The notes below the pieces were generated by a model, which saw nothing but the letters and a program-made list of their open reading frames with translations, had not been told where the DNA came from and did no database searches. The position numbers and the translations under genes are program-made. DNA of 64,000 nucleotides, from the NCBI RefSeq assembly GCF_019649055.1, contig NW_026570313.1:496001-560000 (forward strand), written 5' to 3'. Positions 1 to 63,591 of the stretch are shown here, piece after piece. How positions within the stretch are numbered: position 1 is the stretch's first letter; each line of letters begins with the position of its first letter. The DNA is from Paramacrobiotus metropolitanus (Eukaryota > Tardigrada > Eutardigrada > Parachela > Macrobiotidae).

Positions 1-316
1 AGGAGAACTGTCCTCCGCTTGACCAGGCGGTCTACGACCGAGTACGCTCCGTTCATCGCCGTTGGCTGGACAAGCTGCAGTATCCCGACCAGTGGAGTCC
101 TATTCGGCGCTTTCTTCAGCTGTATGTTGGCACAAAAACGCGCTTGCGCATGGTTCATGCAATTTGGTCTTGTGATAATTTTGCAGGTACAGCGGTTTCC
201 GTCAAGATGGCAGCGTACGCGACTGGGCGGATGCAGACCTTCGATTGATGGATGTATCCACCCTAACTAAGCTTGCTGTGGCAGTAATTGACGCGAATTT
301 CGACGCTGCAGAATAA
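1..316 (+). CDS. Copy A, 3' end of Tudor-like/F-box-like family gene (cut by window edge)
   Basis: Only the end of the gene is present. The penultimate exon runs from the window edge to 121 and the last exon is 187-316, ending in TAA. The 65-bp intron 122-186 starts GTATGT and ends TTTTGCAG. The first codons give the block ending in YDRVRSVHRRW and LQYPDQW that is conserved in all other copies in this window. The last exon encodes the C-terminal block with LYSGF, a DW pair and VSTLTKLAVA. The last exon is 130 bp, the same as in copies D and G. No break is seen in the visible part, so the gene may be functional. The function is unknown; see copies D and E for the full architecture. Confidence 0.75.
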
Positions 317-2504
317 ACACTCCTTATCAATTGCTTTTTATTGCATTCGTGGACCGTTATTGTTTTTTACGGGGAATAAGGCTTTGGCCAGACAGCCGGG
401 CTTATTGAAGAGAAGAGAGCTGCGCTTGCCAACTTAGAGCAATACTTTAGCCCTATTTTGCGGCTGCCATATATCACGTTAAATACGTAATCGGTTATGG
501 TATTCTGTTCTTATAGTTATTCACTCTGTCAGTACTCTGTCCAGTACTCTGTTGTTATTTAGCGAATTATGTTGCGCAGTTTTCTGATCGAGCGGAATGA
601 AGACAAATAATTTAGTAGGCATATCGCTGGTATTCTCCGTGGTACACGTTATACAACGTGGAACCCTTAAGTGATCGGAGCTTCGCATTCCTGATGGCCC
701 ATTTGTGGAACCAACTACAAACGAGTAGCCAAAGGGTCCATTCTTATCGTTGCTAAATACGGCCTCTGTCTGCACTCTCTCCGTAATTCGGGACATCTTT
801 TACTGTTGGTCTGCTTGAATTAATAACCGCACCTTGCTGACTCTGCCTCCCATAAGAAAAATTTCAACCTGCATAATTAACTGCTGAATTAGCCTGAATA
901 CGTGAAAATACGTAAATATATATATTCGGAAAAACAGGCCGAATAATGGTAATGAAAGGCGCTTACACGACAGTGTGAGAAGATTTGTATGCTAGAGGAT
1001 GATGCCGCAGTAGTACAGTGGTTAGCCGTTCGGCTCTAGACGCAGCTGGCGCGGGTTCGATTACCGCCTGTGGCGCGCTTTTTGGAAACAAGTCTCTTTC
1101 CACACAAACAAATAATATATCGATGTCGTTGACCTGCTTCTCGTTTTACTGTAGTCGTTTATGACAGTTAGTTATGAGCACACCCGGATCTGGTAGTTCA
1201 AATTGCACCGAGTTTGCGATCATTCATCGCTGCTTTTCTTCAGTCAGCGTAAATTTATAATCATCGCGTATCGCGTTATTGTAATAACGTGCCACAATAT
1301 TTGATTAAGGCCTCGTCCCCAATCTGCAGCGAATCTAGCTACGGTACAGGACACCACCGTCCCATAATAGGAGATACGCGATACGGTATGTCGGTTCTCG
1401 CTTCGCGTATCTGGTTATCAGTGCAAAGATTCGGGACGGGGGTATGCTGCATACCCGAATGCGTCCCGTTTCCACAACTCTTAGATACGGTATCCTGCGA
1501 ACCGCATCTCAGAACCCGTACCAACCCCGCGTCTCATATCAACCAAAAATTTTACGCGCCCTTTTTACGTATACCCTGAAATACAAAGAAAAACGATACG
1601 GTACGCGAAGCCACCTCCAGAGGTGGCTTTCCCTGGTATCTTTTTGTTGATGAGCGAGCATTTTTTATTATTGCCATTGTGTGACGATTTCTTTTCGTGA
1701 GTTATTTAAGTTTATGAAATTTCTAATCGTTTTAAAACCCAACTAAATGCACAAAAAATTGAAACAAGAAATTTGACCAGCTCAAAACAATACAATAAAA
1801 TCCTACCAAATAACAACAATTAAGTACAACATCATGCGGCTACAGAGAAGCGGAATGGTTTCGAAAAACAATGGTTTCGAAAAACAATTATCCAGACCGA
1901 GTGTGTTTTCAAATACGAAATTAGTTTCTATTCTTTACCACATAAAATACTGAATAGGAGCGCTTGGAAAATGAAGATCTAAATTTGCAAATTCTGATCC
2001 GTATGTAGCTGCTCTAACGCTATTACTATACTGCAGCATGCTGGCCAAATTAAGTTGCGCGGGTGGTTTGCGACTGATCTGACTCATCACCAGCTAAAAA
2101 GTAAAAAGTAAGGACGATGATGCCAAAAACTTTCAATCCAGGGAACAACATTTAGCAATTCAGACTGGGAACTAACTAGAATGAGGGCATAAAAACAGTT
2201 AGCACAAGAATTCCTCCAACAAACCCCGAGAACACAAAAAAAACTGGTAAACAGTGCGATATGCGATCGAAGCGATGGGACGCAAATACAGCGATACGGG
2301 GCCAAAGCTGAAGATTCGATACAGGAAACGGAGAGCGAGCCCAGTTTCGATATGCGTAGCCTGTACTGCATCTTGGTGGTGCGCACCAAATAGTGTCCCA
2401 TTTTTGTACTGTAGCGAAACTAGATACGGTGCTGTATCGCAACGAGATACGCTTTAGAAAGGGACGAAGCCTAAGTAGTGTATTTCCTTCATAAAGCCGC
2501 TTTT
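317..2504. other. Intergenic, no gene recognised
   Basis: About 2.2 kb between copies A and B. It holds a tRNA-like sequence near 1004 (separate entry). Two CpG-rich stretches, about 1290-1640 and 2250-2460, are dotted with the short word GATACGG and with small palindromes, such as the one at about 1619-1634 (CCACCTCCAGAGGTGG). Short open frames here overlap one another on both strands and show no family resemblance. Confidence 0.5.
1004..1074 (+). repeat. tRNA-like sequence, probably a tRNA-derived SINE head
   Basis: Seven bases at 1004-1010 (GCCGCAG) pair fully with 1068-1074 (CTGTGGC), counting one G-U pair. An A-box-like stretch (TAGTACAGTGGTTAG) and a B-box-like GGTTCGATTAC are correctly spaced, for a total of 71 nt. 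The anticodon stem does not pair well and the T stem has a mismatch, so an active tRNA gene is unlikely. A related sequence lies at 5786-5850, which points to a dispersed tRNA-derived repeat. Confidence 0.4.
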
Positions 2505-4904
2505 ATGGATACGATTCCATCGGGTTTTTTTCGACGCCCGCGGTCCAGTTCTCACCAAGTCAGCTACGGCAACACGGTGCTGGTTGAGCGTGACACTGGT
2601 GAGCGGTGGCTGGGATACGTGCAGGATATTGATGGCGACCTCATGTTCATCGATTTTGACTGCAGTATGGTCGCTGCCGGCTGGATCCATTCGCGTCATG
2701 TGCGGGCACAACATTTTCTAAATGAGGACGACCAACTACGATTCGGCGTAGACGAACAGGTGGCCGTCACCGGCGGTTGTGGCTTGCAGGTGGCGCTGCG
2801 CCACACCGCGAACGGACCCCACATTTTCCACCCGGCCCGTCTGCTGACACGAATGGCGGCGGCTGGTGAATCGGGCGCGTTCTGCGTCCGACTAGACCAC
2901 ACGGCCACGCCCCAGTATGCCGTGACGCACCTGTGGCAGGTTGCCGTCAACATGTCAGAGGCTGTGGATGAGCCACCACTGTTCAACCAGACCAGCGGTC
3001 TATACTATCGCAAGTTCACTGTTCCCTTCCCGAATGCTCATATGATCGGGAAGCTGGATATGAAGGCCATACGAATGTGTGCATATCAAGCCGGACGAAG
3101 ATCCGCAGCATCACGTGGTAGTAGCAAAAGCCGGGGGCATTGTAACACGCACGTTGCCTATCGCGTCTATGTCCGTGTTACTGGAGACGGTCTTCTTTTC
3201 GTTTGCGCCCAAGTCTACTCGAATAATGCTAGCGAACGTGCGGAATGGGATGATCATGCTCTCATAAAAGTGTGTACGAAATTCTATCCCGATCCGTCGC
3301 TCACATCCGATGTAAGGAAGGAAACAAAGGACCCTCAACAAAAGCGAATGTCCCCTACCTCGAGCAGTAAGTATCTAAGAACTATCCATACAGCAAAGGT
3401 TCTCTGCAAATATTGCGACTATTTCCTTCCTGCGTGTGATTAGTTCTGGAGAAAGCAGTAGGGCAAGCCTGTACAGCTGATTCTCGAAATCTACCTACGC
3501 TTAAGTAGCGTCTCGAAATGTAGACTTCAGATGTAAGGTTCTTTATCTGATTTACAATTTAGGCTGGACTCGGATCGTACCCAAAGCAGTAGTATCTACT
3601 ATTCCTGTGGACAGATACGGATGGATTGGTGACGTGGTGGACCAGGACCCGGTTATGGCCGAGATCCTGATTGGCCTGGATCTGCACACTCAAGCGCGAG
3701 TCGAAAGGTAGTGCTAACAAATAATGCTCAAACAGTACAAAAGTTTCGAATGTGAAAAGTTTTCTTGTTGTTACAAATTTTCTGTAAAATATTGCGAAAA
3801 CTGCAATTGGCTGAAAACTCTCGTACTGATAAATTCAGTTTTACAATCATAAATAAATTCGAACATCAAATTTTTCGATTTTACGTTAAGACTGTGTTTG
3901 TTTATATTGTACGGTCGACGTGCACCAGCCATGTCAAATGCAGCAAGACGTAAAGGGCATGGATCTGAGCGTAACCCGTGAAATTCTGTATTTCTTGTAC
4001 GAGGACCTTCACACAGAAAATAAATTGCCGGGCTTGTATACTGATCCGTTGGATGCATTTCAGGGTGTGCACATTGTGGATACAACTGCTATCCGACAAT
4101 CGCGTCAGCCGTCACATCACCATCGATACCTCAATGATCACTCTGAGCGAATTATACACATCTAAGTGCAATGACGTCTACCGCTTCACATGGGGTTGAA
4201 TGAGGCCGTAACCAGCCACACGGATAGGCTGGTGGTGCTGGAAAACGTCCACTATTCAAACCTGACCACGGTAACGACAGTGCTGGTGGCGCTGTTAGCT
4301 GCCAAGAAGATCCAGCTGCCCTATATCCTCCTCCGAGATGGCAGCACTGCCCATGGGATAACCAATTCTCCGAGCAGATTCGACGCGGACATACCACCTT
4401 ACGGTTTTATGATCGAACGTGCGTGGCGTTGCGACAAATTAACCAAACTACTGACCATTGGTCGCCGGCTGGTTCTGCGCAATTACTTTGTGGGGGATAT
4501 TGTCTGCAACGATAGTATGGGGTGGCTGTTCCGTGATAGCGACGACATTCCCTGGAAGGAAGCCGGTTTCATCAGTGGCACCCCGTTTAGTAACCCCCGA
4601 AATCCCATTACGATCCGCTACGCTGTGCTTCAGTCCATCAATGGTGATGCCGGCGTAATTCGACAGTTTCTGCTCGCGGCGGAGATAAGTTGTCCTCCGC
4701 TTGACCAGACAGTTTACGATCGAGTGCGCTCCGTTCATCGCCGCTGGGTGGACAAGCTGCAGTATCCCGATCAGTGGCATCCCATTCGACGCTTCCTTCA
4801 GCTGTATGTTAGCGGAAACAAGATGCATGATTTAATGTAATGTAATGTCATAATGTATTTGCAGATTCAGCAGTTTTCATCTAGATGACAGTGCGCATGA
4901 CTGA
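2505..4904 (+). pseudogene. Copy B of Tudor-like/F-box-like family, broken by frameshift and nonsense
   Basis: Exons: 2505-3366, 3563-3707, 4064-4803 and from 4865. The start ATG at 2505 opens the family N-terminus (MDTIPSGFF), followed by the Tudor/SH3-like segment (GNTVLVERD, WLGYVQDIDGD, FIDFDC) and the conserved YYRKFTVPFPNAH block. Exon 1 ends in phase 1 at a strong GTAAGT donor. Exon 2 encodes the DRYGWIGD to LDLHTQARVER part and exon 3 begins VCTLW, so the F-box-like motif is split between them. Exon 3 is 740 nt where a multiple of three is expected. One base is missing at about 4194-4197 after FTWG, and the frame resumes at NEAV. In exon 4 the conserved Asp-Trp pair is Asp-stop, with TGA at 4902. 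Two independent lesions make a recent pseudogene the best reading. Confidence 0.75.
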
Positions 4905-5785
4905 TAGGCCGTTGATCTTCGTCTGCTGGAGGTGTCCAGCCTGACGAAGCTGGCAGTGGCAACCCCTGACGCGCGCTTCACAATCAACACGGTACACGAT
5001 GCCGCAGCCGACATTGTTTGTCGTTTTCAATATTGACCCTCACCGAGTCACCGGCATATTAGAGTTCGATTGAAAAGCAGATTTATATGGCTAGAAGAAG
5101 AGCGCCCTGCGTGGTAATTAATGCGATGCAGTCGAATGAGAAACACACGCTGCAAACTTTGTTTACAGGCAGTTGTAGGAATTTTTTGATTGCGTTTTTG
5201 TCGTTCTGTACGGCAGTTTTAAATGTTTAACAGGTTTACTGTACAAAAAGCAACTTTGTGACTTAACAACGGTATATTGAATGGCTTTTATTCGTTCTTG
5301 ATCAGCATTCCTTTTTTTTCGATTTCTTTAACGTATCACATGCTCAACTAAGTTCTGAATTCCCATTACGATTGTGTGAGTGATTTGTCACCTACTCATA
5401 AAAGGCTAAAACAGACAAAAGTTCAGTTAGACCTGTCAACACATATAACTCTGGTTTATGAAAGGGCATAGAAGAAACGGTGGTCGGGGTTTCCTGCTGT
5501 AGCAGCTAGTTAGAACTTAGTATTACTGTTTTCGATTTTGATGCGCAAGCGGCAGATTTTGTTATGCTAAGAGGACAAAGATCTAACGAGAACTGTTAAT
5601 ATGAACACTGCATTGATTTCACTACGCAAACACCAACTGCCTGTTCATAGTACAAAGCTCGCTTCAAACTAATCCGCAGGAGAATATTAATGCCGCACCT
5701 ATCTGCTACATATGGCGTTAGCTGGTGTGAACAGAGAAGCGGCTCACGTAAAGCGATAAAGTCTGTCAAATGATTTCAACGTATT
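4905..5785. other. Intergenic; decayed tail of copy B, then nothing recognised
   Basis: The first about 80 bases still match the family's last exon (LEVSSLTKLAVA-like) beyond the premature stop of copy B. The rest is AT-rich and has no supported gene. The expected exon 1 of copy C is absent here. Confidence 0.45.
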
Positions 5786-5882: not shown

Positions 5883-8189
5883 ACATCCACACTGACGGAT
5901 GGATAGCGCACGTGGCACACCCTGTTCTGGCCGAGATGTTGTTTGTCTTGGATCTGCACACTCAGGCACAAGCAAAAAGGTACGAAGTACCGTTTAACGA
6001 ATACTTTTTAGTCTCTTAAGGTATGTGCTCGCAATGTTATTACCAGTAAAATATAAAAGCGTATACATATAAAACGGTAACTGAGGTCCGCTGTATAGGG
6101 TGGTTACAGGACTTACAGTTACATCAATGCAAGATTTTGGAAATCCCCTTAGTTAGGTTTCGTATTCTTTTTTTTCTCACATGTTTATGTACTCAGTATC
6201 CACAAAGCACATATTACACTCCTTTGCGAAAAAGCATGTTCGGTATCGCCCCAGTTGCTTCTCGTGTTCTATAATCACAATTCTAAAACCATGAAACATT
6301 TTTGAAACCGCTAATAATCAGAAACGATCTGCAGGAAAAATTAATTTTACGATTGTATGTTTCATGTTACTACATTTGCGAATGCAGTAAAATCTGAAAG
6401 GTAAAATCGATTTGTCTGTTTTGGAGTACTTTTACAATCTATTCGCAGTTAAATCTGAAAACTGCAATATGCATATGGGTTACAGGGTGTGTGCACTATG
6501 GCGCCAGCACCTTTCTGATCAGGCCTGCGCTGAAAGTCTGAATCTGAATCTGATTCTGAATGCTAAAAGTCTGAGTCTGAATACTAAAAGTCTGATTCTG
6601 ATTCCTGGAACTCTGAATAATACACAACTCTGAATCTGAATAATAAAACAATAAGTCTGGCAGGTGACGACCCGAGTCTCTCATCAAAATTATAATGCAG
6701 TTGCGTTAAGACAATAATTAATACTCGTAGCTCGTATAGATAACAGTTATGTATAGATAACACATTTACATGGGCGTATATTATGCTCGTTCGGTAAATT
6801 CAGAGGAATTACCGGCTATCTCATCCTACACTGGACGCAAAACACCGTTTGTTTTTACCACACAAACGACTTGGTAACGTCTCTGTAGAGCGGTACGCGT
6901 TGTTTTTTACAAGCAGTTCCCACCGCCTAATACTAATCTATAATTACTCGTATACATAACTATTATCTATACGAGCTATTAATTATTGGCTTAACACAAC
7001 TGCATTATAATTTTGATGAGAGACTCGGGTCGTCACCTGCCAGATTTAGTGTCTTATTATTCAGATTCAGAGTTTGGTATTCAGATTCAGAGTTCCAGGA
7101 ATCAGAATCAGACTTTTAGTATTCAGACTCAGACTTTTAGCATTCAGAATCAGATTCAGATTCAGACTTTCAGCGCAGGCCTTCTGATCACCGTGTGGTC
7201 TCCCGGCACGTCGTCATCGATAGCTCCATGGTGATGTTAAAGGCAACGTCTTCATTGATTGGTGATGACGTGTACAGCTTCACCTGGGGCTTGCATCAGG
7301 CCGTCACCGGGTACACCCAAACCTTGACGACGGTCTATAGCGCCGGCAGCACAAACCTGACCCAGTTGACGGAAGTGGCGGTGGCGCTGTTAGCCGCCAA
7401 GAAGATCCAGCTACGCCACATCCTTCTTCGCGACGGCCGCTCTGCCCGCGGTATTACGAACTCACCAGCCAGGTACAAAAGGGGCGTAGTATGTGGCTCG
7501 GATCGTTACGCAGGATGGCACTGCAAAAACTTATCCGAACTTATGACTATCTGTCGCCAGCTGGTCCTCCGCAATTACACCGTGGAGGATCTTGCCGCAG
7601 TCCGGAACCTGATTTCCCTGTTTCCTGGCTATCCACCTTTTGATTTCGACGACTTTTTGAAGAACAGAGTCGGTTTAGCGTCTGCCACCCACCGAAAGGT
7701 CCGGGTTACCCTCCGCCATTTATTGCTACATTGCGCGGATGGGGATGATAGTGTCCTTCGGCAGTTTTTGCTAGCGGCGGAGATGAGATGCACTCCGCTA
7801 GACCGAACCGTATACGATCGAGTGCGCGCTATCCATCGGCACTGGCTGGGACATGTGCTGTATGCTAATCACTGGCGTCGGATTCGAAACTTCCTTCAGG
7901 TGTACGTTGCCGACAGCAGGTCACGCCTGCGCATGGTTCTATGCATGTTAATTTATCGTTGTAATGATTTCGCAGGTACAGCGGTTTCCGCCCAGATGGC
8001 AGTGCACGGGACTGGACGGATGTTGACCTTAAAGTGCTGGACGTATCTAGCCTGACTAAGCTTGCCGTGGTCACACTTGACGCGGGCTTCGAAGTTCCAC
8101 AATATACACGCTCTAGCGATCCCTTAAAACAGATGGTTGAGGAGTTTTATGATCATTCAGTAATGCTAGCAAACAGGAAGGACAAATAA
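5883..8189 (+). pseudogene. Copy C of Tudor-like/F-box-like family, lacks exon 1 and carries a MITE
   Basis: Exon 2 is 5883-5979 (DGWIAHVAHPVLAEM, LDLHTQAQAKR). Exon 3 starts at 6486 (VCALWRQ) and is interrupted after 6521 by a 660-bp foldback element and its target duplication. It resumes at 7191 and runs open to 7901 (SRHVVIDSSM through VYDRVRAIHRHW). Exon 4 is 7976-8189. Exon 3 without the insert is 747 nt, a multiple of three as in intact copies, so the insertion is the only lesion in that exon. Exon 4 lacks the usual stop and runs about 28 codons past the normal end, to TAA at 8187. No exon 1 is present upstream. It is a 5'-truncated, transposon-disrupted copy, although a long ORF (7195 onward) survives. 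Confidence 0.75.
6522..7181. mobile_element. Foldback MITE, Mutator-like by its 9-bp target duplication
   Basis: 660 bp with terminal inverted repeats of about 215-225 bp that are about 90% or more identical. The left end begins GGCCTGCGCTGAAAGTCTGA and the right end is its reverse complement. The repeats are full of CTGAATCTGA and AAAAGTCTGAG words. The flanks 6513-6521 and 7182-7190 are both TTCTGATCA, a 9-bp target-site duplication. Long inverted repeats with a 9-bp duplication are typical of non-autonomous Mutator-like elements. No transposase is encoded. It is inserted in exon 3 of copy C. Confidence 0.8.
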
Positions 8190-17228: not shown

Positions 17229-20200
17229 ATGGACCATACGCCATCGTACTTTTTCCGCGTCCCAAAACGGAGTCCTCGCGAAATCAACTACGGGAACACG
17301 GTGCTGGTTGAACGTGACAATGGCGAGCGGTGGCTGGGATACGTGCAGGACATCGATGACGACCGCATGTTCATTGATTTCGACTGCAGCGCGGTTGCCG
17401 CTGACTGGATCCACTCCCGACACGTGCGGGCGCAGCGCTTTCTCAACGATGACCCCGAGCTTTGGCGCTTGATAGACCCGCAAATGGCCGACACCAACAG
17501 CTGCGCCGTGCAGGTGGCGCTGCGAAACATCCCGAACGGTCCATACATTTTCCGCCCGGCGCAGCTGCTGACCCGGACGCCGGAGGTGGGCGAATTCTAC
17601 GTCAGACTGAACCAAGCGACCACCACCCAGTATGCGGTGGTGCACTTGTGGCAGATTGCCGCCAACATGAAGCTGCCAATCGATGAGCCGCCGCTGCTTA
17701 ACCAGACCCGCGGTTTCATCTACCGTAAATTCACAGTCCCCTTCCAGAATGCCCATATGATTAGGATGCTGGATAAGAAGACCATTCGCAGATGTGTATA
17801 CGAGGCCGGATTGGACATGCCACAGTTTGATGGTGGGCGGTCGTGCAGTCCCTTTGTCTCTGACCGCTACTTCGTCAAGATTAGTGGAGATGCTCTCCAT
17901 TTTGTTTGCGCCCAGCTCTTTTCCCGGTCTCACCACGTTTGTGCGGAATGGAATGAAGAGAATCTCATAAGAGCGTGTACGAGCCACTATCCCAATCCGG
18001 CGCTGCTCCACGTGGAAATGAACATCCCCCAGCAGCAATTAATAATCAGTTATGTTTATCATTTATAGAGCGTATGTACTATATTGTAAGGGGAGTACGC
18101 CTAACGGCGGCGGTCTGACCAGAGCGTGAAAAGCCTAAATAAGCCTGAAATCTGAGCATTATTCCAAAAAATGTTGCCAACGCAGGGAATCGAACCCCCG
18201 TCCACCAGGCTGGCGGTATAATGCTCAAGATTTTATACGCCTAAACGCTGAATGAAACGCTCCTCACAACATACTAATTTTCTGTACATACTGTGCAACA
18301 GTTCATGATCATACTCACTTCTCAGTGATACGGTGGGGTCACTGGGAATCTTCGTTAAGTTCAAGGTGAAGGCTCCGCATACCACCTTTGGCTCCTAGTA
18401 CCACCTTTGGCTCCTAATACCGCCTTTTGCACACCACTTTTGACTCCGTGTACCAACATTTAATATTAATAAGGATATCTGGTAAAACCGAATGGTTTGC
18501 TTGTGTACAGGCGCGTCTAAATTAAATCTTCATATACAATACATACAATGGAAGACAAAATTCACTTAACTCCGGACCGTCAGCCGCTGTCGGCTTACAG
18601 CGCATACGAGAATGAGCGCCGCATATCCGTCGCGATAGCCGCTCACTGAGCAGAAGCGCGGCAGCCGTGTTCTCTCTGTTCTCTGTCTAAAACTAAAGAC
18701 ACAAAACCGGTTCCGAGGTTAAGTAAATTCTGTCTTCCATTGTATCTGTATATGCTGCAATCGGGGGCTATACAATTAAATCCTGATCTTTTCAAAATAT
18801 TCCACTAGCCATTTTCGGATACCTTGTTCGGTGTACGATGTTCGTACGCTTCCTTACAAACAGTACGAATACGCATTTCCGGTGTGCGTTCGTATTGTTT
18901 TTCCATAGCGTCGGTTGCGATACTGATGAATGCCTTCAAGTTGCCATCTTTTTCCATTCGGTACACGGAAAGATTTGATCTCGTTTCTTGATGTTAAAAA
19001 TTCACTTCTGCTAAAAATTTAAATTAAATAGTGGCATGCGGAGTCAAAATTGGTGTACAACAGGTGGTGTTAGGAGCCAAAGGTAGTATGCAAGGTGGTA
19101 CTAGGAGTCAACGGTGGTATAAAGGGGGTATGCGCTGAGTCTAGTATGCAGAGCCGTCACCTAAATTCAAACATTTTAAAGCAAAGCAGTGAAACGAGTT
19201 GGAATAGCTGGTTCCTGAATTTTTCCGAAATAGATATTTAGCAATGCAAGAGTGGCTGTAGTTAGGAGAACGATGCTAAATACAGTGTATTTATTCAGCT
19301 TACTTATTTATCCAGGTATGCATAATGACATACACTATGCAGACAAGTATCGCGGAAAGAAACTTCGCGTCAATTTAAAACACTGATTTATATATTAATA
19401 CAGTGTGGCGTAGTATAGCAACCATGTTGCTAGCGTATGGTCATCAGTGTGAGACCATCAGTGTGTGTTGGGTCGAGCTGCAGTAAACTACTAAGTCGTG
19501 ACAGTGGCGTGAAGGTACGACTAGTGTGATACTCCGCGAGCAGAAATGCCCAGTACGGGTAATGTGACTGCTTCTAATATGACGGCTCCCGCAGCGCCCC
19601 GTGAGGAGAATGGTGGATCTGGCCTTCTGCGGTTCGAACCTGCGGTCATGACGTGGAGGTCATGGCAGTTTCGATACCGCAACTATATCAAGTTGAGGAA
19701 GGTTACGGACACAGATGAACAGAAGGCCATCCTGCTGGACGCCTTGGGCGTGGACGCGATGGAAATGCTGCACTCCATGTGCCTGCCGCGTGACCCGGAC
19801 GATTACACCAATGCTCAGATTGTGGATAAACTCGAGCAGGCATACGTCCGGAAGACCAACGCGACTGTAGAGTGGGCAATGTATTTCCAGCTGCGTCAAG
19901 AGGCCGGGGAAACGTTGTTGGAGTTTTCCAACAAGCTGCGGAGGAAAGCAATTACCTGCAACTTCCCCGGAGACGTGTTGTAAAAGAACATGTCGTCGAC
20001 GTTCCTGAACGGTGTGGCCAGCGATGCCACGCGTCAGCACCTCATGACCAAAGATTTCACGACGCTCGAAAAGGCCCTGGAGATGGCGCAGCAATACGAG
20101 CCGGCCAAGACCACCAAGCGTGGCCAAGCGTCCACGGAAGTGGCTGACGTAGCCATCGTGCGCAGTAATACAGAAGGGCGTGGCCAAGGTCACCGTCAAG

Positions 20201-22377
20201 GTCAACTAGGCCGAGCTGGGGGAAGAAGCGACGGCACAGGCGGAAGCTGCATGAGAGGCGGTGGGCGAGATGAAGGGAGCAGCCCAGCCGACCGCGGTGG
20301 CGATACCGCCGGCACCAGTCGACTGCCCGGAGGAGGTGCAGGATGTTACTCCTGTGGCGACCTGGACCACAGAATGGCGGACTGCTGGGCAAAGGACGTC
20401 CGTTGTGGCAACTGTGGCAAACGAGGCCACATTGCCAGGATGTGCCGCTCGGAGCCTAAAGAGCGGGAACAGCACCAAGGTGGGAGGCGAACAATGCTCA
20501 TTGAGGATGAATTTGATGTCATGGGCATCAACATCGCCCCGGAGAGCACAGACGACTCGCTGGACTCAGTATGGTGCGTGTTAGATACATTAAGCAGGCA
20601 GCTGAATGAACTAGCGGAACGGTGCCGTGCGCTGGAGCGGGACGGCAGAAATTCCGCGAACGAAGGTTCCCAGATGGATCAGGCAGAAGTGTTGTTTATG
20701 AGTGAAACAACCGCCTACGGGCGTATGGCGGACGGAACCGAAGAACGGAGAAATAGCGGTACGGCGTACGGAGACGGAATCAGCTGTACTCGTAGTGCAC
20801 GACCAAGTCAAAGCCAGTGCGAGGCGACAGTTGCTGTTGCGGACGCCGAGGCCGAACCGGTCATCAGTGTGAGACCATCAGTGTGTGTTGGGTCGAGCTG
20901 CAGTAAACTACTAAGTCGTGACATACAGAAACAGGCCCGGCAAAAAATTAGTGGGCGAAGTATTCCCGAACAGTAATATTGTGCTCTGGATTGCAGGCAG
21001 TGCAGTTACTGGAGCGGATGACGGATGGATTGGCGACATGGTGCATCCGGTTATGGCCGACATTCTTTTCAGTCCGGATCTGCACACTCAGGCTCAAGCA
21101 AAAAAGTAACCGCTCACGATTACGGCTCTCAGTGCTTATATACAGTAGTTCATTTTACAGGTCGGTCTTCTCGTGGTCAGTTAGCAAGAAATATAAAGTT
21201 TTGGCACTTACCGAAAATCTTAGCGTATCGCAACTGCGAGCAAATTCAGGCAGATGCCGGAACAATCAGTAGACCTTTTACAGCATGGGCTTTCCACATT
21301 TTTTTTTAAATCGAAGAACTTATTTATCTTTTCAACCGTTTATTTCACCAATCAATAAAATTTACAGTATAAGCGCTATCGAAGATATGCCCAGAACTGC
21401 TTGCGGACATGCATTTACGAACTGACCAACATCATGAATTGCAGGGTATGCACATTGTGGCATCAGCTTCTGTCCGACAATCGTGCCTTTCGGCACGTCA
21501 CCTTCGATAGCTCCATGTTGATGGTTAGCGAATATTACCCGTCTTTCTACGACGACGTCTACCGCTTTACCTGGGGCCTGAATGGGGCCATAACCGGCCA
21601 CACGGAAAGTCTGACTGTGCTGGATAAGCATACCCCGTACTGCAGTAATCTGACCTCGCTGACCACGGTATTGGTGGCGCTTTTTACTGTCAGGAACATT
21701 CGCCTGCGCTATTTCCTCATTCGCAATGGCTGCACACGCTACGGTGTTACGGACGCGCATCCGCATGACGTCGACGCTGTGGCCAGCGATGAATGGTACT
21801 GCTACCATTTAGCCACGCTTACGGCCATTTGTCATCGGCTGGCGGTGCGCAATTACTTTGTGGAGGATATGGCCAGCGACTGGGATATATTGGCGCTATT
21901 TCCTTTTAGCGACGACTTTCCTAGGGAGGAAGCCGGTTTGACCAAGTCCAATTTGCGTCACGTTCACCGTGCGATCCCCATTACGATCCGCTATGCGATG
22001 CTGCATTCCGCTGACGGTTATGCCGGAACTCTCCGACAGTTTCTGCTGGCGGCTGAGATGAATTGTCCTCCGCTGGAATCGACGGTCTACGATCGGGTCC
22101 GCTCCGTTCACCGCCGGTGGCTGGACAAGCTGCAATATCCCCATCAGTGGCATCCCATTCGACGCTTCCTTCAGATGTAGGTTGCCGGTGGCGAAGGATG
22201 CCTTAGCGCAGGCTGTATTGCACTTTGACGTTTTGATGATTTTTCAGGTATTGCGGGTTCCGTCCAGATGGCAGCGCATACGATTGGACGGGTGTTGACC
22301 TTCAACTGCTGGATGTGTCCAGCCTAACTAAACTTTCTGTGGCAGCAATTGACGCAAATTTTGACGCTACGCTATAA
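17229..22377 (+). CDS. Copy D of Tudor-like/F-box-like family, apparently intact
   Basis: Exons: 17229-18048, 20997-21105, 21445-22176 and 22248-22377, about 596 residues. The ATG at 17229 gives MDHTPSYFF. Residues about 15-60 form a Tudor/SH3-like segment (NYGNTVLVERDNGERW, GYVQDIDDDRMFIDFDC). Later come VQVALRNIPNGPYIFRPAQL, VVHLWQIAANM and FIYRKFTVPF. The F-box-like motif joins exon 2 (DGWIGDMVHPVMADIL, DLHTQAQAK) to exon 3 (VCTLWHQLL, RHVTFDSSM). The C-terminal half has leucine-rich stretches, YDRVRSVHRRW, and finally YCGFRPDG with LLDVSSLTKL. Phases are 1, 2, 2, as in the other copies. The first donor (GTTATG) is weak and is chosen by phase. Intron 1 is 2.9 kb because two mobile elements sit in it. 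The function is unknown; SCF substrate adaptor is an inference. Confidence 0.7.
18175..18260 (-). repeat. B-box-bearing tRNA-like fragment
   Basis: The minus strand reads GGGGGTTCGATTCCCTGCG followed by TTGGC, a good tRNA T-arm and 3' acceptor half. The 5' half does not fold or pair, so this is a tRNA- or SINE-derived fragment and not a gene. Confidence 0.3.
18365..19161. mobile_element. MITE with 9-bp target duplication in intron 1 of copy D
   Basis: 797 bp. The left end starts GGTGAAGGCTCCGCATAC and the right end, reverse-complemented, starts GGTGACGGCTCTGCATAC. Both arms contain CACCTTTGGCTCCTA-type words arranged inversely over about 100 bp. The flanks 18356-18364 (TAAGTTCAA) and 19162-19170 (TAAATTCAA) form a 9-bp target duplication with one mismatch, again pointing to a Mutator-like mechanism. 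A second, inner inverted pair lies at 18544-18571 and 18717-18744. Confidence 0.65.
18544..18744. repeat. Inner inverted repeat within the MITE
   Basis: 28-base arms (18544-18571, starts TACAATGGAAGACA; 18717-18744, its reverse complement with two or three changes) enclose about 145 bp. It is either a nested foldback element or a secondary structure of the MITE. Confidence 0.5.
19404..19503 (+). repeat. 5' LTR (100 bp)
   Basis: Begins TGTGGCGTAG and ends AAGTCGTGACA, preceded by the target duplication TACAG. Positions 19439-19503 recur as the truncated 3' LTR. Confidence 0.75.
19546..20858 (+). pseudogene. Retrotransposon gag with two zinc knuckles, one nonsense codon
   Basis: The ATG at 19546 opens a gag-like frame with WRSWQFRYRNYIKLR, TDEQKAILLDALG and GETLLEFSNKLRRKA, then FLNGVASDATRQHL, as in Ty3/Gypsy-type capsid regions. 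Two CCHC zinc knuckles follow near 20341-20450 (CYSCGDLDHRMADC and CGNCGKRGHIARMC). An in-frame TAA at 19981-19983 splits the otherwise single frame. The frame then runs directly into LTR sequence at 20859, so protease, reverse transcriptase and integrase are missing. Confidence 0.75.
20859..20923 (+). repeat. 3' LTR, truncated
   Basis: 65 bp identical to the end of the 5' LTR (19439-19503), followed at once by the target duplication TACAG. Confidence 0.75.
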
Positions 22378-33220: not shown

Positions 33221-33241
33221 GCAAGTATCTGTGTGATGCAA

Positions 33242-38129: not shown

Positions 38130-38191
38130 TAATTAAGTATATACTTAATTATTACGTAGATTATTACGTAATATATTACTATTATTACGTA

Positions 38192-38232
<41 letters not shown>

Positions 38233-38284: not shown

Positions 38285-38794
38285 ATTTTGCTCTTTCGCG
38301 AGTTTTCCTTTCATTGGATGCTGCTTTCTAAGTTCGTGGCGCTTAGTGCAGGAGTGTTTTATCATGGCGATAATTACAGATCTAGAATTGCCGCAAGCCT
38401 TTTACTTAATTTACAACTAGAATTATTTTGCCTTTGATTAACAAAAGGGTTAATACACCGCATTATTTTACGTGTCTGTCGCGGACATATCAGGTGGTTT
38501 TGCGTCACTCTGGCTTCCAACCATGCATTTACAACTTGAAATATTTTCTCGTAGTTTATTCTTGCTACGCCGAACGATTGCAACAAATTCAAGCGGCAGA
38601 AGTTCTTTGATTTTCGTTATAATTTCCGGAAATTTAGGTATAAAAGATTTGCATTTAAATATTTAGAGGTTTTCGAGAGAAATACTGTAAATTGTTGTTT
38701 TGGGCAGCGGTAATTCTTTTCAGCGTTGAGTGATAGGAGAAATTACCCAGCCTGTTAACACTCTCAGGTTTATTCAACTGCGCGATCGGCTATA

Positions 38795-51239: not shown

Positions 51240-52559
51240 ATGAAAGTGCTAACTACGGAAGAAATGCTGGCATTCTTGCCGCAGTTGGAGAGCGATTTCC
51301 CTCGCAGCCTTCCGGTATTAACCATTATTCCGCAAATTATATGCACAGTGCAACGATATTGTTCGCACCAGGAACACTTTTTTCTCTATATGGTTTTGCA
51401 CTCAGCCACAGAGGGGTGTTTATTTTGTGAATTTAGGAAGCACAAGCAGTAGAATGCAAAAAGTATGCATTGTCAGGTTACGTCATGGCGAACTGTGTAC
51501 TTATATTGCTGTGCAGATGTATCACCTGATGCGCAACGTCCTCCGTCAGCGCTTCGCCTGGCCGGGCACCGAGTTCCTCGTCGACACCTACCCACATCCG
51601 TCCGTTTGCATCTGCCGACCACGGAAAAGCGACCCTGCCTACGTTCCCATAATGAACGGCTACCAGGTGTTCGTCTACTCCAAAGACGCCGAAGTCTTCC
51701 GGCGAATGTTGTTCGACGAGCCGGATACGCTGGACTGGACGCAGAATGTTGTCTTTGCTGGTACGCGCCAGAGAACGTCGCCATGAAACTGAATCATAAG
51801 TTGATGGTACACTAATCAGAGCGTTCTGATGTAGACTTACCGGAAGAGGAGCAGGCCGTCATTCTTGGTGTGGGTCAGGGTTTTCGCGGGGGTACGTTCC
51901 AGCATTTACCGTCTACTGAGGGCTTCCCGGCCGGACAGTGCTACTACCGTCTCGATTGGTCTACGCTCAATCTGAAGTAAGCCATCGTCTGTTAACGCCT
52001 TTCTATACTTGTTTGGTTTTCCCGCCAATTTACTACCTAACATTTAAATTTTTGATTGCGCGTTTACTGCAGTTGATAATTAATTTGTTGCGACGATGTT
52101 TGTAGATTTGAAATACCCGATGGTTTTCTTTTGGGAACTCTGCAACCAGAGCATGCCGACCAAGTCGCTCGTGAGCGCAATTACGGTCACATGACCAACA
52201 ACGCCATCTACTTTCGCTACATGCTCGAAAAAGAATTTCCCACCGCGGCGGTGTTCCCCGCCGGCTCGGACACGCCCATCGCGTACTGTCTATACAAGAG
52301 CGAAGGCGTTATTGCCGCCGCGTACACCCACCCGGACTACCGTCGGCGGGGTTTTTTCCAGTTGGTGCTGCGAGCGTTACTCCAGAAGCTTAAAGACATG
52401 GGTGAAGTCAACGTGTGGCTGGATACGCGCAAGTTCAATCCAGCATCGCAGGCAGCCTTCAGGGCGGTCGGCGCCGAGGAGTACGAAGAATACACTGTGG
52501 ACTGGATGCAGTACTGGCCGGCCGGCTGCAGCCCAGTTCCCAATAAAAACGTCGTTTGA
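51240..52559 (+). CDS. Glycine-N-acyltransferase-like GNAT protein 3
   Basis: Exons: 51240-51314, 51517-51760, 51820-51976 and 52106-52559, giving 309 residues. Start MKVLTTEEMLAFLPQLE. Exons 1 and 2 have the same lengths (75 and 244 bp) as in the two paralogs. Conserved blocks are MRNVLRQRFAWPG, NGYQVFVYSKDAEVFRRMLF, then ARERNYGHMTNN, VIAAAYTHPDYRRRGFFQ and NVWLDTRKFNPASQAAF. It is closer to the gene at 23455-24675 than to the one at 25304, although that gene lies 27 kb away. It converges on copy E just as gene 1 converges on copy D. The role is acyl transfer from acyl-CoA, substrate unknown. Confidence 0.85.
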
Positions 52560-53951: not shown

Positions 53952-56261
53952 CTAAGTTTGCGCAAATTCAAAATGCGCGTCAATGGCGGCCACTGCCAGT
54001 TTCGTCAGGCTGGTCACATCCAGCAGTCTAAGGTCAACATCCGTCCAGTCCCGTGCACAGCCATCCGGATGGAAACCGCTGTACCTACACATCCATAATA
54101 CCGTCTTAAATTACGTAACGGGCCTATTTAAACCAACCTACAGTTGAAGGAATTCGCGAAGGAGACGCCAGTGATCGGGATACTGCAGATTGTCCCGCCA
54201 GCGACGATGAATGGCCCGTACTCGATCGTAGACGGCTGGGCCAATGGGAGAACAGTTCCGCTCGGCCGCTGCGAGAAACGTCCGCAGCACACCGGCCACT
54301 CCCTCAGCGGTGTGCAATATGACATAGGGAATCATAAGCAGGAGGGGGCGGTGAGTTTGTAACTCCCTGGTGGACGCCATATAACCGCCAAACTGTCGTA
54401 TGATGTCATCATCGTTATGAGGGAACACCGAGATCATATTCCCGACGCTGACCATATCCTCCACGGTGTAATTGCGCAGAACCAGCCGGTGACTGACGGA
54501 TGTCAGAAGGGTTAGGTTGGCGCAGCGCCATACGCCGTCAGCCATATTGGTGCCGTGTGGTGGGCCTACGCTCCGGTGGTCCGGTTTATTCGTAATACCA
54601 CCCCGAGCACGGCCATCGCGGATGAGGATGTAGCGCAGCTGGATCTTCTTGGCGGTCAGTAGCGCGACCACCAGTGTCGTCACTGTTTTCAAATTGGTGC
54701 GATCGACATTATCCAGCATCATCAGGCTTTCGGTGCGGTCGGTTATGGCGTGATGCAGACGCCAGGTGAATGTATAGGTAGCATCGCAAATCAGTTGGGA
54801 CCGTTCGTCCAGAATCACGATGGAACTGTCGATGGTAACATGCCGGCTGACGGCACGCTGGACGACTAAAAGCTGCCGCCACATTGCACAAACCCTAATA
54901 CACATTGCAATCTGTATAAATGTGAGGACCTAATTTCTGTACGCAGCCGCAATAGCGAAGATTTTGAGACAATCAAAAACCAGAAAAATGTCCTGGATGT
55001 ATTCGGTTTTTTGGCATGACCGAGCACTTAGAGACGGTCACGCCAAAAACTGTTAACCTTTCTGCTCGAGCTTGAGTGTAGAGATCCAGATTGATGAGGA
55101 CGTCGGTCATAATCGGATGCAACATGTTACCAATCCATCCGTCTTGGTCTACGAGTAAACTGCAGTTCAGCTTATGGGAAGTGTGCCGATACAACCATAC
55201 AGGATACCAAAATCCTGCACAATGACTAATACTGTTATTTTTGCGTAATGCCAAACGCGTTTTTTATATTATTTTTCTATGACATTCTTCGACCAGATCG
55301 GCCTGAACACCGTTTGCGCACGCAACATCCAAGTTTGCTAATTAACACGGATGAAAACTTTAAGTCGTCAACCGAAGTAGCCGGATACTGTTAATTTAGA
55401 CACTCTGCAACAAATACCGAACGTACCGTATATGAACCCTTGCTGAGAATCATCCATTATGCCGTCCAACGGTGATGGAGTGGGATAAAAGCTCGTACAT
55501 GCTTGTAGTAGAGTGTCGTCATCCCATTCCGAAATATCCTGAGGACGTCTGCCGGAGAGCTGGGCGCAGATGAAATGCAGAACATCGCCGGTAATACGGG
55601 CAAAGAATCGGTATGCCACCCAGACATTACAGTCCCGACAGAATCGACTAAGGTCAACGCGCGCTGTAGGCTGATTTACTCCTGCTTTAAAAACACATTT
55701 CCGGAGGGCCTCCACATCCAGCCTATTAATCAGTTGAGCATTTTCGAAGGGAACCATAAACTTGCGATAGTATATTCCGCGAGTCTGGTTCATCAGCGGC
55801 GGCTCATCAAGAGTCTGCTCCCTATTGACGGCAACCTGCCACAGATGCGCCACCGCATACTGGGGTGCGGTCGGGTGGTCCAGCCGAACGTAGCACTGGC
55901 CCAGTACCGCCGTCCGTGTTAGCAGATGGGCCGGACGGAAAATGTACGGTCCATCCGCGGTTCTGCGCAGCGCCACCTGCACGCTACACCTGCCCGTGGC
56001 GGCCACTTCCTCATCTATTGGCTTCCACGTCGCGTAGCCATCATTAAGGAAGCGTTGCGCGCGTACATGCCGCGAATGGATCCAGCTGGCGGCGGCCGTG
56101 CGGCAATCGAAATCAATGAGCATGAGGTCGCCATCAATGTCCTGCACGTAACCTAGCCATCGTTCACCGTTGTCACGCTCCACTAGAACTATGTTCCCGT
56201 AGTTGATTTCGCGGGGTCCCTTTACTGGGAGCTGGAAGAAGTATGCCGGAATATCGTCCAT
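53952..56261 (-). CDS. Copy E of Tudor-like/F-box-like family, intact
   Basis: Exons on the minus strand: 56261-55427 (or to 55418), 55148-55058, 54894-54142 and 54084-53952, about 603 residues. It starts MDDIPAYFF. The Tudor/SH3-like segment lies at residues about 18-60 (NYGNIVLVERDNGERW, YVQDIDGDLMLIDFDC). Then come HSRHVRAQRFLND, VQVALRRTADGPYIFRPAHL, AHLWQVAVN and YYRKFMVPFENAQL. The F-box-like motif joins exon 2 (DGWIGNMLHPIMTDVLINLD, TQARAE) and exon 3 (VCAMWRQLL, SRHVTIDSS). The C-terminal half has TKKIQ-like leucine-rich strands, HRLVLRNYTVEDM, YDRVRAIHRRW and, in exon 4, LYSGFHPDG with LLDVTSLTKLAVA. All phases match copies B, D and G. No lesion is seen. Function unknown; an SCF-type adaptor is an inference from the F-box-like motif. 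Confidence 0.75.
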
Positions 56262-59041: not shown

Positions 59042-61764
59042 TTATAGTGGAATGTCAAAGCGCGCACCAACGGCTGCTACTGCCAGCTTATTCAGCGTAG
59101 ATATATCCAGCAGTCGAAGGTCCACATCGGTCCAGTCGTGTACACTGCCATCTGGACAAAAACTACTATACCTGCAAAACCATTACACTGTCAAAAGACT
59201 GGTAATTATAATATTAGCATAGTATACTTCATAATATTATAAAAATTATACGGAAACCGGCGCAGTCTGTTTTGATCAACGTACAGCTGCAGAAGGCGCC
59301 GAATGGGATGCCACTGATCGGGATACTGCAGAATGTCCAACCAGCGGCGATGAACGGAGCGTACGTGATCGTAGACGGTCGGGTCCGGCAAAGGACAGCT
59401 CCTCTCCGCCGCTAACACAAACTGTCGGAGTATACTGGCAGGTCCGTCAGCGGAATGCAGCAGTAAATGCGGAATTATAATGGGGATTTGCCGGTTGGTA
59501 ACGGATGCCCGCAAACCGGCTTCCTTCCCGCTGGGAAATTCATCATAAGGAAACAAAGCTCGTATACTATGAATGTCGGCTATGTCCTCGATGGTAAAAT
59601 TGCACAGCACCAGCCGATGAGAAACGGCAATAAATCTGGCCAAATTTACGCAGCCAAATCGGTCGCCGGCATCAACAGATCAGCCGTAACTGTTCGATGC
59701 GTATCCAATACCACCGCCTGTGCGGCCATCACGAATGACGATGTAGCGTAGCCGCAGCTGCTTGGCGGCCAACAGCGCCACTACTACGTTCACCATGGTG
59801 ATCAGATTGGTGGCGCTGATGGCATCGAGCAGCGTCAGGCAGACGGTGTGGCCAGTTACCGCCTGATTCAGGCCCCAGGTAATGCTGTACACCTCATCGT
59901 AACTCGACAAGGACCCTTCGTTTCGAATCACCAAGGAGCTATCGATGGTAACGTGTTGGTGGACACGATTGTCGGACAGCAGCTGTCGCCACAGTGTGCA
60001 AACCCTGCAAACCATGGTTAGTCTGCCATTCTCCATACGTAATGAATAGTGAATACTAAAATAAATGGTGCGCACGGAAAGAATTATTCTTCCCTACACG
60101 CTATACCGTAATTATCGAATTAGAAGCCTAGGGTCACAAATATTTCAAATGACCCACGGGGTGGGCTTCAATTACGGGCATGGGCTTGTATTTAGGGGGG
60201 GGGGGGCCTAGATTTTCAACCCAGCTTTTTGGCATTTTTTAACATGGGCTTTATGGTATTTAATTAAGCCCATGGGCCTCTATTTCGGGGGGGGGGTTAT
60301 AACTTTCAAACGACCTTAAGGGTTGGCTCTAATTACGGGGGGGCTTGTATTTTGGGGGTGCTTCAAATTCGATAATTACGGTATATTACAACAACTGTTA
60401 TTTACAGCAGTACAACAACTGAACTTTTGTTGTTATAGTAATTTGTTTTTGACTCACAATGTGCCCCTGTTTTATGCAATAAAAGTATAACTACTTCTAC
60501 TGTTGATTTAGGAAAAAATATTTTTTTTTCACTGGCACTGCTGGCGCGCGCCCCAGCTCTTATAACCTGCTTTCTGACTCGATGAAACAGTGACCTTAGT
60601 ATATACAGTATGGTTTCTTAGTATAACTTACGACGGCACTAGCCGTTACCTTTTCACTTTAGCTTGGGTATGCAAATCCACACCGATGAGAATGTCGCTC
60701 AATAACGGATATACCCGATCGTTAGTCCATCCGTCATTGTCTACAAAGGCAGCATTACGGTAATTGCCTCTGAATTTAAAAAAAATATTAATTCTGCATG
60801 GGTATAATCCCGTGTAGTGAGTCAACTGATAACCACGTAGTATCGATTTCCACGAAACTGGTGGTGGGTGCCGTATTGAAGATGCCATTCGAATTTGCGG
60901 CAAATGTTCAACATACCGAAACTGCGCACGTCCTGAGGCACCTCCATTATATTGCTGCCGAGTGGCGCCGGAACGGGATTTAATAGTGTACACTCGCGTA
61001 TGAGGGTATCTTCATCCCATGCCGCACACAGTGTAGGATGAGGGTCAGGGAACTGGGCACAGACAAAATGTAGAGCATCGCCAGCGATCCGAACGAAAGC
61101 GCGGCAAGCAACCAGCTCGTTGCCTATGTAATAACCGCCCCCACCGTCAACCACGTCTGAAACACGGACCGGAGTGCGTGCGGCGTTGCACAAGCATTTA
61201 CGTATGATCTTCGCATCCAGGCTCCTAATCAGTTGAACGTTGCTGAAGGGAACACTGAACTTGCGGTAGTACAATCCTAGTTCTGTTCAGCAGAGGCGGT
61301 TCATCGAGCGCCTCTTCCATGTTGACGGCAATCTGCCACAGATGCACCACGACGACCTGGGGCGTTGTCGCGTGGTCCAGCCGGACACAAAATAGGCCCA
61401 GTGTCGCCGTCCTTGTCAGCAAACGAGCCGAGTGGAAAACATGCGGCCCGTCCTTGGTACGGCGCAGCGCCACCTGCAGAAGATAGTTGCCGGTGGCGAC
61501 CATCTGCTGGTCCATATGCATCGAGTACCATGGCTTGTCGTAGAACTCACTCAAAAAGCGCTGTGCGCGGACGTCACACGAGTTAATCCAGCCGGGGGAA
61601 ACCATAGCACAGTCGAAATCAATCAGCATGCGGTCACCATCAATGTCCTGCACATATCCCAGCCATCGTTCACCGTTGTCCCGCTTAACTAACACCGTGT
61701 TCCCATAGCTGATTTCTCGCGGGCTCTGCTTGGGGCGCCGGAAAAAGTATGGAATAATGTCCAT
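59042..61764 (-). pseudogene. Copy G of Tudor-like/F-box-like family, two lesions
   Basis: Exons on the minus strand: 61764-60917, 60740-60650, 60004-59285 and 59171-59042. It starts MDIIPYFF and has the Tudor/SH3-like segment (SYGNTVLVKRDNGERW, DIDGDRMLIDFDC). Exon 1 loses two bases at about 61275-61285, between LLNRTR and YYRKF, where intact copies read TRG-YYRKF. Exon 2 (91 bp, as in E) gives DGWTNDRVYPLLSDIL and VDLHTQAKVKR. Exon 3 begins VCTLWRQLLSDN. It has an in-frame TGA at about 59689, after YASNSYG, and stays open afterwards (FIAVSHRLVLCNF, VYDHVRSVHRRW). Exon 4 is 130 bp and ends correctly. With so few lesions the copy probably died recently. Confidence 0.75.
60140..60375. repeat. 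G-tract-rich imperfect tandem repeat in copy G intron 2
   Basis: Two or three diverged units, each with CTTGTATTT or CCTCTATTT followed by a run of G (up to 13 at about 60195, about 10 at about 60287, shorter near 60340), plus repeated AATTACGGG and TTCAAAC/TTCAACC words. The G runs could form four-stranded DNA. Confidence 0.6.
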
Positions 61765-62636: not shown

Positions 62637-62682
62637 TTGAACGCTTCATCAAAATTATAGATACATTGGACGTTAATGTCAC

Positions 62683-63591
62683 CTTTTCATGTAGGCTTGA
62701 TTGTGCAGATCCAAGCTGCAAAAAATCTCAACCAGAACCCGATGCGGAACGTCGCCAATTTCCCCGTCCATGTCTGGGGAAATGTAGCAGCGACGGATCG
62801 GGATAGCAGCTCGTACACGCTTGTACAAAAATGTCGTCATTCCATTCCGCACGCTCATTCGGATGGCTAGCAAAGAGCTGGGCGCAGACAAAATGTAGAG
62901 CATCGCCGGCAATCGTGATGAAGAGTCGCTCGGAAACAAAGTTGTTACAAATCGCCCGGCCGTGTCTCCATCCCGGTAACACCGTGGGCGGATCTAATCC
63001 GGCCTGGCCAACGCATCTCCGGATGGCCCCCATGTCCAGTTTCCTAACCAGGTGAGCATTCGGGAAGGGAACCGTGAACTTGCGGTAGTATAGTCCCCGA
63101 GTGTGGTTATGCAGTGGCGGTTCAGTCACCGTCTGATCCGTATTGGCGGCAATCTGCCACAAGTGCACCACCATAAACTGGGGCGCGGCCCCGTGGTGTA
63201 GCCTGACGTAAAACTGGCCCTGTATCCCCTGTACCAAATCGATCCGTGTCAGCAGACGGGCTGGGCGGAAGACGTGTGGTCCGTTAAGGGTGCTGCGCAG
63301 CGCCACCTGCACGAGACAGCTGCCGGTGGCGGCTACTTTTTCGTCTATCGACTTCCACATCGCGTAGTCATCATTGAGGAAGCGTTGCGCACGGACATGC
63401 CGAGACTGGATCCAGCTGGCGAGCTCCGTATTGGAGTCGAAATCAATGAACATGAGGTCGCCATCAATGTCCTGCACGTATCCCAGCCACCATTCGTCGT
63501 TGTCGCGTTCAACCAGCACCGTGTTCCCGTTGTTGAATACATAAGGGCTGGATGCAAGGCGACGGAAAATATACGATGGAATAGTATCCAT
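62683..63591 (-). pseudogene. Copy F of Tudor-like/F-box-like family, 3'-truncated
   Basis: It starts at 63591 with MDTIPSYIF and is open through the Tudor/SH3-like segment (NNGNTVLVERDNDEWW, YVQDIDGDLMFIDFD), VQVALRSTLNGPHVFRPARL, YYRKFTVPFPNAHL and DALHFVCAQLF. Exon 2 (62773-62683, 91 bp as in E and G; DGEIGDVPHRVLVEIF) follows almost at once, so most of intron 1 has been deleted and read-through changes the frame. A cryptic GTACGAG donor at about 62816 with the acceptor before 62773 would give a 43-bp intron in the right phase, at the cost of the end of exon 1. Exons 3 and 4 are missing. Confidence 0.7.

Follow-up and report, generated by a model that had tools for sequence, protein, structure and literature searches.

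Candidate F-box receptors with a predicted FXR-type tandem Tudor module form a large gene family in the tardigrade Paramacrobiotus metropolitanus

The 64 kb of Paramacrobiotus metropolitanus DNA analysed here (the window; positions 496001-560000 of contig C93) holds seven copies, A to G, of a gene whose predicted product joins two Tudor barrels, akin to those of the FMRP/FXR proteins, to an F-box that an intron cuts in two. The genome searched comprises 169,799,020 bases in 533 contigs, and all gene models discussed are computational predictions. The window family is called type I throughout, and type II denotes a second, separate family of the same genome that bears on its origin.

Copies D (596 residues) and E (625 residues) each read open through four exons, and their introns are of the GT-AG type. 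The D and E proteins served as queries for a spliced aligner on the window copies and on 40 fetched paralogue loci; it recovered intron phases 1,2,2 in copy F with D as query and 2,2,2 in copy B, while the phases 1,2,2 of D and E themselves are self-matches in this program and add no proof. With E as query, exons 3 and 4 of D and the end of its exon 2 were recovered and the exon 1/2 boundary was not reproduced, so that the 3' end of exon 1 of D is uncertain. An earlier note on this DNA had described a four-exon plan with fixed phases common to the copies; D, E and F show it, and B has four exons in phases 2,2,2. Of the 40 fetched paralogues, 13 have the exact plan of four exons in phases 1,2,2 (10 among the first 18), exon 1 being split further in all 13 of the most divergent models (L028-L040). 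The exon models agree with its tally of two intact copies (D and E), four with lesions and one cut by the window edge. In copy B exon 3 is frameshifted once and exon 4 contains two stops; exon 3 of copy C is broken, and no match to exon 1 or exon 2 was found in this copy; copy F has a frameshifted exon 1 and a stop within exon 3; and copy G consists of exon 1 and an out-of-frame first half of the F-box, no exon-3 match having been found. Copy A is truncated at the edge, and its exon 1 lies outside the window (C93:493814-494587). In exon 1, copy E shares 56-60% identity with the three other full-length rows of the alignment and 64% and 45% with the two pieces of F. Within intron 1 of copy D, at 19525-20976 on the plus strand, a PNMA/gag-like frame (19525-19983, 1.3e-5) scores just above the cut-off, and D may thus have tolerated the insertion of a retroelement.

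A genome-wide count, which the earlier note had proposed, takes the family from seven copies to hundreds of loci. Exon 1 of E has 141 genome matches including itself (weakest E 2.8e-5), which merge into at least 139 loci on 49 contigs, 13 of them on contig C93, and exon 3 has at least 150 matches; both locus counts are lower bounds, because 139 of 700 first-look candidates were scored in the exon-1 search and 150 of 599 in the exon-3 search. For 83 of the 141 exon-1 matches, the next 6 kb downstream contain an exon-3 match in the same orientation, which in a few cases is shared. The exon-1 alignment kept 36 of 47 models (4 of the 7 window copies and 32 of the 40 loci), and that of exon 3 has 26 members (2 window copies and 24 loci). 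In a sample of 14 related genes, where 84 of 91 pairs were computable, the median ratio of nonsynonymous to synonymous divergence (dN/dS) is 0.27 for exon 1 and 0.38 for exon 3, and dN is higher in exon 3 than in exon 1 in 79 of the 84 pairs, which share ancestry and are not independent. Judged by these ratios, both exons look constrained, the C-terminal half less so.

Exon 1 is predicted to contain a Tudor barrel, and in the structure model, built only from window sequences (mean predicted local distance difference test, pLDDT, 59.8), this is joined by a second barrel and a KH0-like tail in FMRP-like order. The Tudor/SH3-like segment that the earlier note had read at the N-terminus is thereby supported, as its proposed structure prediction does contain an SH3-like barrel. 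In a Foldseek search of the PDB with this model the top eight matches are all N-terminal structures of FMRP/FXR proteins (E 1.2e-4 to 1.4e-3). The VIA comparison lays model residues 20-262 on FMRP 1-195 (ending at 194-195), over 175-179 residues with Z 8.4-8.6 and a root-mean-square deviation of 7.2-7.5, a value so high that the placement of the domains relative to each other is unreliable. Rows after FXR have Z of at most 7.6, most of them covering some 45-56 residues of the first Tudor. Among the 50 rows listed by VIA, whose wide coverage is confined to model residues 13-72 and which speak only for the families in the list, FXR chains alone span both Tudors and the KH0 part, and all but three of the non-FXR rows are confined to the first barrel. 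By sequence the signal is fainter: Pfam at E<=1 finds Tudor_4 in 13, Agenet in 6 and Tudor_FRX1 in 6 of the 36 exon-1 members, the best of each under the cut-off, and the exon-1 profile of the window family has four weak PDB matches, namely intersectin SH3 (E 0.016 and 0.13), the Pcl Tudor (0.43) and the FXR2 Tudor (2.3). Taken with the profile bridge described below, this model of moderate confidence predicts two tandem Tudor barrels in exon 1, which a KH0 domain probably follows.

The roughly 270 residues after the F-box form a C-terminal half whose fold is without assignment. The structure model of exon 3 is unusable (pLDDT 35), the exon-3 profile has 0 matches in the PDB, the 26 exon-3 members give no DUF38/FTH or FBA2 match in Pfam at E<=1, and neither a WD40 nor an LRR domain was found in this half by Pfam or by the PDB profile; full-length D and E also lack a KH match (Pfam, E<=10). 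One could argue that the front module, and not this C-terminal half, is the main substrate binder, for example in the degradation of methylated or ribonucleoprotein (RNP) proteins, and the invariance of V27, W35, G37, F51, D52 and W60 of Tudor 1 in 36 of 36 aligned members would fit such a role. The faster divergence of exon 3 is, however, what would be expected of a variable recognition half, and the Pcl Tudor, to which exon 1 is weakly matched, has an incomplete aromatic cage; we therefore hold this arrangement to be doubtful, and prefer a conserved module in front of a selective C-terminal half.

The kinship with FXR is carried largely by the type-II family. A genome search with the FXR families PF17904 and PF18336 retrieved a canonical FXR gene (L041) together with further Tudor genes. 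L041 (418-2277, minus strand) is a single uninterrupted frame of 619 residues, its N-terminus matches human FMRP at E 8e-36, and from its sequence it reads as having KH1, KH2 and RGG, the canonical FXR architecture. The type-II family was reached from an F-box locus on contig C35 (L054), one of three inspected, and comprises at least 138 exon-1 matches, which merge into at least 130 loci that are all distinct from the type-I loci. In hhalign comparisons a type-II exon-1 profile built from 21 members aligns with the N-terminus of FXR (3 sequences) at Prob 95.6 and E 1.1e-8, colinearly over 142 columns, and with the window-family profile at Prob 92.3 and E 5.5e-7; neither score was reached by any of 200 column shuffles. 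Compared domain by domain, Tudor 1 of type II matches that of FXR with Prob 93.8, while for Tudor 2 the value is 86.2 between types I and II and 19.5 with FXR. Type-II F-boxes exceed the Pfam cut-off (L054, for example, at 7e-9), and module and F-box share one open frame in L065 (F-box-like, 2.6e-6) and in L063 (PF00646, 1.4e-4), both over the cut-off. In PDB searches the type-II profile matched mitochondrial uL24m at E 0.1-0.5, and antibody light chains among the matches of one type-II protein were taken as noise. Eight further bridge candidates (L046-L053) were scored by the spliced aligner: L048 (824) and L047 (462) score as type-I genes, L046 scores 152 and L049-L053 score 65-92, with reversed-sequence controls for two loci at 50-60. 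Two of these candidates, L051 (C106:65813) and L053 (C209:97496), have the FXR Tudor PF18336 above the cut-off and, downstream, weak F-box-like segments (scores 86 and 65 versus 50-60 for the reversed controls). By sequence, the genome may hold additional FXR/F-box subfamilies.

How common the pairing is was gauged from F-box matches found by six-frame scan of the genome, 150 of 1080 candidates being scored. At least 13 of the 150 follow a scored type-II exon 1 at a distance of no more than 2.5 kb, compared with 2 and 1 in two position controls. Because the proximity lists covered only part of the matches, a systematic sample of 15 of the 150 was drawn, one in ten starting at rank 5, and for each the 1.9 kb in front of the F-box was read in the orientation of the match. 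The module was present upstream at E<0.01 in 12 of the 15 loci, the best reversed-sequence control reaching 0.35; the 3-sequence FXR profile alone found it in 7 of 15 at E<0.003 (best reversed 1.6), and the window-family profile in only 2 of 15 at E<0.01 (L081 and L090). These E-values apply to a few frames of 15 loci, and the controls are reversed sequences rather than random loci. Two sampled loci without the module (L086 and L087) and a marginal third (E 0.026) weigh on the other side. Should the 15 loci be representative, FXR/F-box hybrids would make up the majority of the F-box genes in this genome. Not one of the 150 scored matches has a scored type-I exon 1 in the 2.5 kb upstream of it, as would be expected if an intron hides the type-I F-box from the scan, and simple surveys may undercount the window family for the same reason. 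SKP1-family matches in the genome number four.

Several observations tell against kinship of the window family's front end with FXR. Set directly against FXR, its profile reaches only Prob 6.9 and E 0.005, with Tudor 1 laid on Tudor 2 and a score of 26.2 versus a shuffle maximum of 24.4; since this comparison is weak and out of register, it is the bridge and the fold that carry the link. FXR was not retrieved from the PDB by the type-II profile or by the single type-II protein tried, and Pfam at E<=1 finds Tudor_FRX1 and Agenet in one each of the 21 type-II members. The top VIA Z only slightly exceeds the range of 7-8 which the tool gives as usual where a model lacks a clear match, and the pLDDT of the exon-1 model is modest, that of four other models being 39-45. 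The KH0 segment scores near chance by sequence (Prob 1.3-4.7, with 1-4 of 100 shuffles equally high), and PF17904, which we take to be the FMRP KH0 model, finds one gene only, the canonical FXR, and misses the window family. In an alternative reading the front end is a generic tandem Tudor of a chromatin reader (Spindlin-, SGF29- or UHRF1-like), the likeness to FXR being convergent and the products being chromatin-directed F-box receptors. The near-chance KH0 would suit it, as would the appearance of Spindlin1, BAHCC1, PHF1 and SGF29 next after FXR in the Foldseek list and the fact that Tudor_4, the commonest weak Pfam match, is a histone methyltransferase Tudor. It fits poorly with a Foldseek list whose first eight places are all FXR and with an alignment from the Tudor pair into the KH0 part that is unique to FXR among the VIA rows shown. 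The match between the first Tudors of type II and FXR also argues against it, in an hhalign comparison that covers FXR and no other tandem-Tudor profiles, as does the detection of the module by the FXR profile upstream of seven of the sampled F-boxes. We consider convergence unlikely and retain the FXR-type assignment.

The earlier note had placed an F-box across exons 2 and 3, and this claim now finds support at the level of the family. Single copies are unconvincing: on spliced full-length D and E Pfam finds only F-box-like, below threshold, at 10.9 and 9.2 bits versus a cut-off of 24.3, and the junction segments of D, F and B score 16.9, 18.8 and 18.5 bits, so that no window copy attains the Pfam F-box cut-off, which counts against the assignment. 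An initial alignment of 34 segments from 47 models (3 window copies and 31 loci) had been cut by the pattern VCxx[WY], its invariant V, C and W being partly there by construction; in that set F-box was found in 24 and F-box-like in 23 of 34, and all 8 PDB profile matches were F-box proteins. As these segments were motif-picked, the test was redone on 44 unselected exon 2/3 junctions, comprising those of all 40 fetched loci and of B, D, E and F, with or without the motif. Pfam at E<=1 finds F-box-like in 33 and F-box in 30 of the 44 (best 6e-5), and the PF00646 cut-off is passed by L038 and L031 and not by B, D, E or F. Conservation reaches 90% or more at six positions (I, L, D, V, C and W) in segments that are 28-63% identical to copy E; the motif is missing in L015 and L036 and reads ICTLW in L016. 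Searched against the PDB at E<=10, the profile of the 44 junctions matches ten sequences, namely nine from F-box proteins (E 0.13-1.4; FBXL17 twice, FBXL5, FBXL2, FBH1, FBXW11, FBXO6, FBXO44 and one called F-box protein) and one from a peptide synthetase (0.18). Each of these lines is weak alone, and it is their agreement that supports an F-box signature. That the F-box is vestigial, the genes being FXR-like readers past SKP1 binding and the cluster mostly decaying duplicates, would accord with the sub-threshold window copies and the four broken genes, but given the six conserved positions, the two loci above the Pfam cut-off and the constraint that both exons appear to be under, we judge it quite improbable.

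With these elements in place, we propose, with a probability of roughly 0.6, that the window genes encode substrate receptors of SKP1-CUL1-F-box (SCF) ubiquitin ligases, composed of an FXR-type tandem Tudor, probably a KH0 domain, a split F-box and the C-terminal half without an assigned fold. F-box proteins link SKP1-CUL1 to substrate. In the present family the F-box would bind SKP1, the conserved FXR module would anchor the ligase to a class of targets such as methylated proteins, RNP particles or ribosomes, and the faster-evolving C-terminal half would select the individual substrate, while copies would turn over through tandem duplication and decay. The tandem Agenet domain of FMRP reportedly binds methylated histones and FUS, and an N-terminal part of FMRP is said to be able to repress translation. 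A bolder extension, which we offer as speculative and rather improbable, is that most F-box proteins of this animal are FXR hybrids, several hundred SCF receptors that dock on RNPs, ribosomes or methylated proteins and whose fast-changing tail chooses the prey, serving as an intracellular defence against viral or retroelement RNPs. If true, the fragile-X module would have been rewired from translational control to protein destruction.

The exon coordinates of the seven copies are collected in the table. Other genes of the window include a Kelch gene at 27554-29955 (minus strand; Kelch_1 3.9e-30 at 27557-28216, with a BTB part upstream by eye), which represents another type of ubiquitin-ligase adaptor adjoining the cluster. 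Pieces of rhodopsin-like G-protein-coupled receptor genes lie in tandem at 31507-49394 (minus strand), with 7tm_1 at 1.2e-22 in 45129-45659 and weaker matches, under the cut-off, at 37227-37670 and 49008-49394. GNAT or glycine N-acyltransferase-like duplicates stand on both sides, at 23455-26478 (Gly_acyl_tr_N 6.2e-5, under the cut-off, at 24055-24756) and at 51322-52559 (Acetyltransf_1 3.6e-8 at 52080-52556). A hAT transposase C-terminus occupies 16243-16857 (plus strand, 1.2e-16), and a tRNA-Pyl called by ARAGORN was taken as false, the host being an animal.

Table. Exons of the type-I gene copies in window coordinates.
Feature	Position	Strand	Basis
Copy A: end of exon 3, 6-121; exon 4, 187-307; remainder left of the window	6..307	+	spliced alignment
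Copy B: exons ~2505-3370, 3615-3707, 4064-4803, 4865-4979	2505..4979	+	spliced alignment
Copy C: exon 3 start fragment, 6487-6513; exon 3 remainder, 7192-7901; exon 4, 7976-8102	6487..8102	+	spliced alignment
Copy D, exon 1: two predicted Tudor barrels and KH0-like segment; 3' end uncertain	17229..18048	+	alignment of exon-1 members
Copy D, exon 2: F-box first half	20997..21105	+	junction segment F-box-like, 16.9 bits
Copy D, exon 3: F-box second half and bulk of C-terminal domain	21445..22176	+	gene model
Copy D, exon 4: C-terminal end	22248..22377	+	gene model
Copy E, exon 1: predicted Tudor 1 (~residues 20-70), Tudor 2 (~92-141), KH0-like (~164-257)	55427..56261	-	structure model
Copy E, exon 2: F-box first half	55058..55214	-	gene model
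Copy E, exon 3: F-box second half and C-terminal domain	54142..54894	-	gene model
Copy E, exon 4: C-terminal end with stop	53952..54084	-	gene model
Copy F: exons ~61764-60917, 60740-60650, 60004-59285, 59171-59045	59045..61764	-	spliced alignment
Copy G: exon 1, 63591-62785; out-of-frame F-box first half, 62682-62780	62682..63591	-	spliced alignment

The earlier note knew of no described family with this order of parts, and among the matches listed in the open literature, with subscription papers and preprints outside that scope, we likewise found no description of an FXR-type module followed by an F-box. The main text of the Hypsibius/Ramazzottius comparison (PMC5531438) contains no mention of F-box, ubiquitin, cullin or Tudor, and neither F-box nor Tudor was found in the available part of PMC11191345. 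The domain architecture hence appears new, while its mode of action is probably that of an F-box receptor family. A reader module of the fragile-X type placed on an F-box and amplified to a large gene family in one animal may also constitute a natural experiment on the binding partners of the FXR module.

The closest relative in form is the N-terminal domain of FMRP, FXR1 and FXR2 (tandem Tudor/Agenet and KH0; PDB 4qvz, 4qw2 and 4ova), which shares with the window family the predicted order and fold of exon 1 and, through type II, a profile kinship. The window-family proteins are nevertheless not FXR proteins, since D and E lack a KH match, with a putative F-box and a C-terminal half after the module, while the canonical architecture is read in L041, a single gene beside the hundreds of loci. 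Mammalian SCF-Fbxo4 reportedly has Fxr1 as its substrate, which is a different relation. The mammalian F-box proteins FBXL17, FBXL5, FBXW11 and FBXO6, all among the PDB profile matches, share the F-box signature and differ in the WD40 or LRR domains not detected in the C-terminal half of the window family. In repertoire the nearest parallel is Caenorhabditis, five species of which have 39 to 1426 F-box homologs that turn over by species-specific tandem duplication, according to the available part of PMC8665587; as far as the accessible text of PMC5392922 goes, some of the expanded families are induced by virus and microsporidia, and DUF38 is a common partner of nematode F-boxes. Large numbers, tandem clusters and decayed copies are common to both animals, whereas the DUF38 partner gives no match in the 26 exon-3 members here and an FXR-type module precedes the F-box. 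By analogy with the Caenorhabditis members that respond to virus and microsporidia, a role in defence is a reasonable guess, and the FXR/F-box family may represent a tardigrade counterpart of these expanded nematode families.

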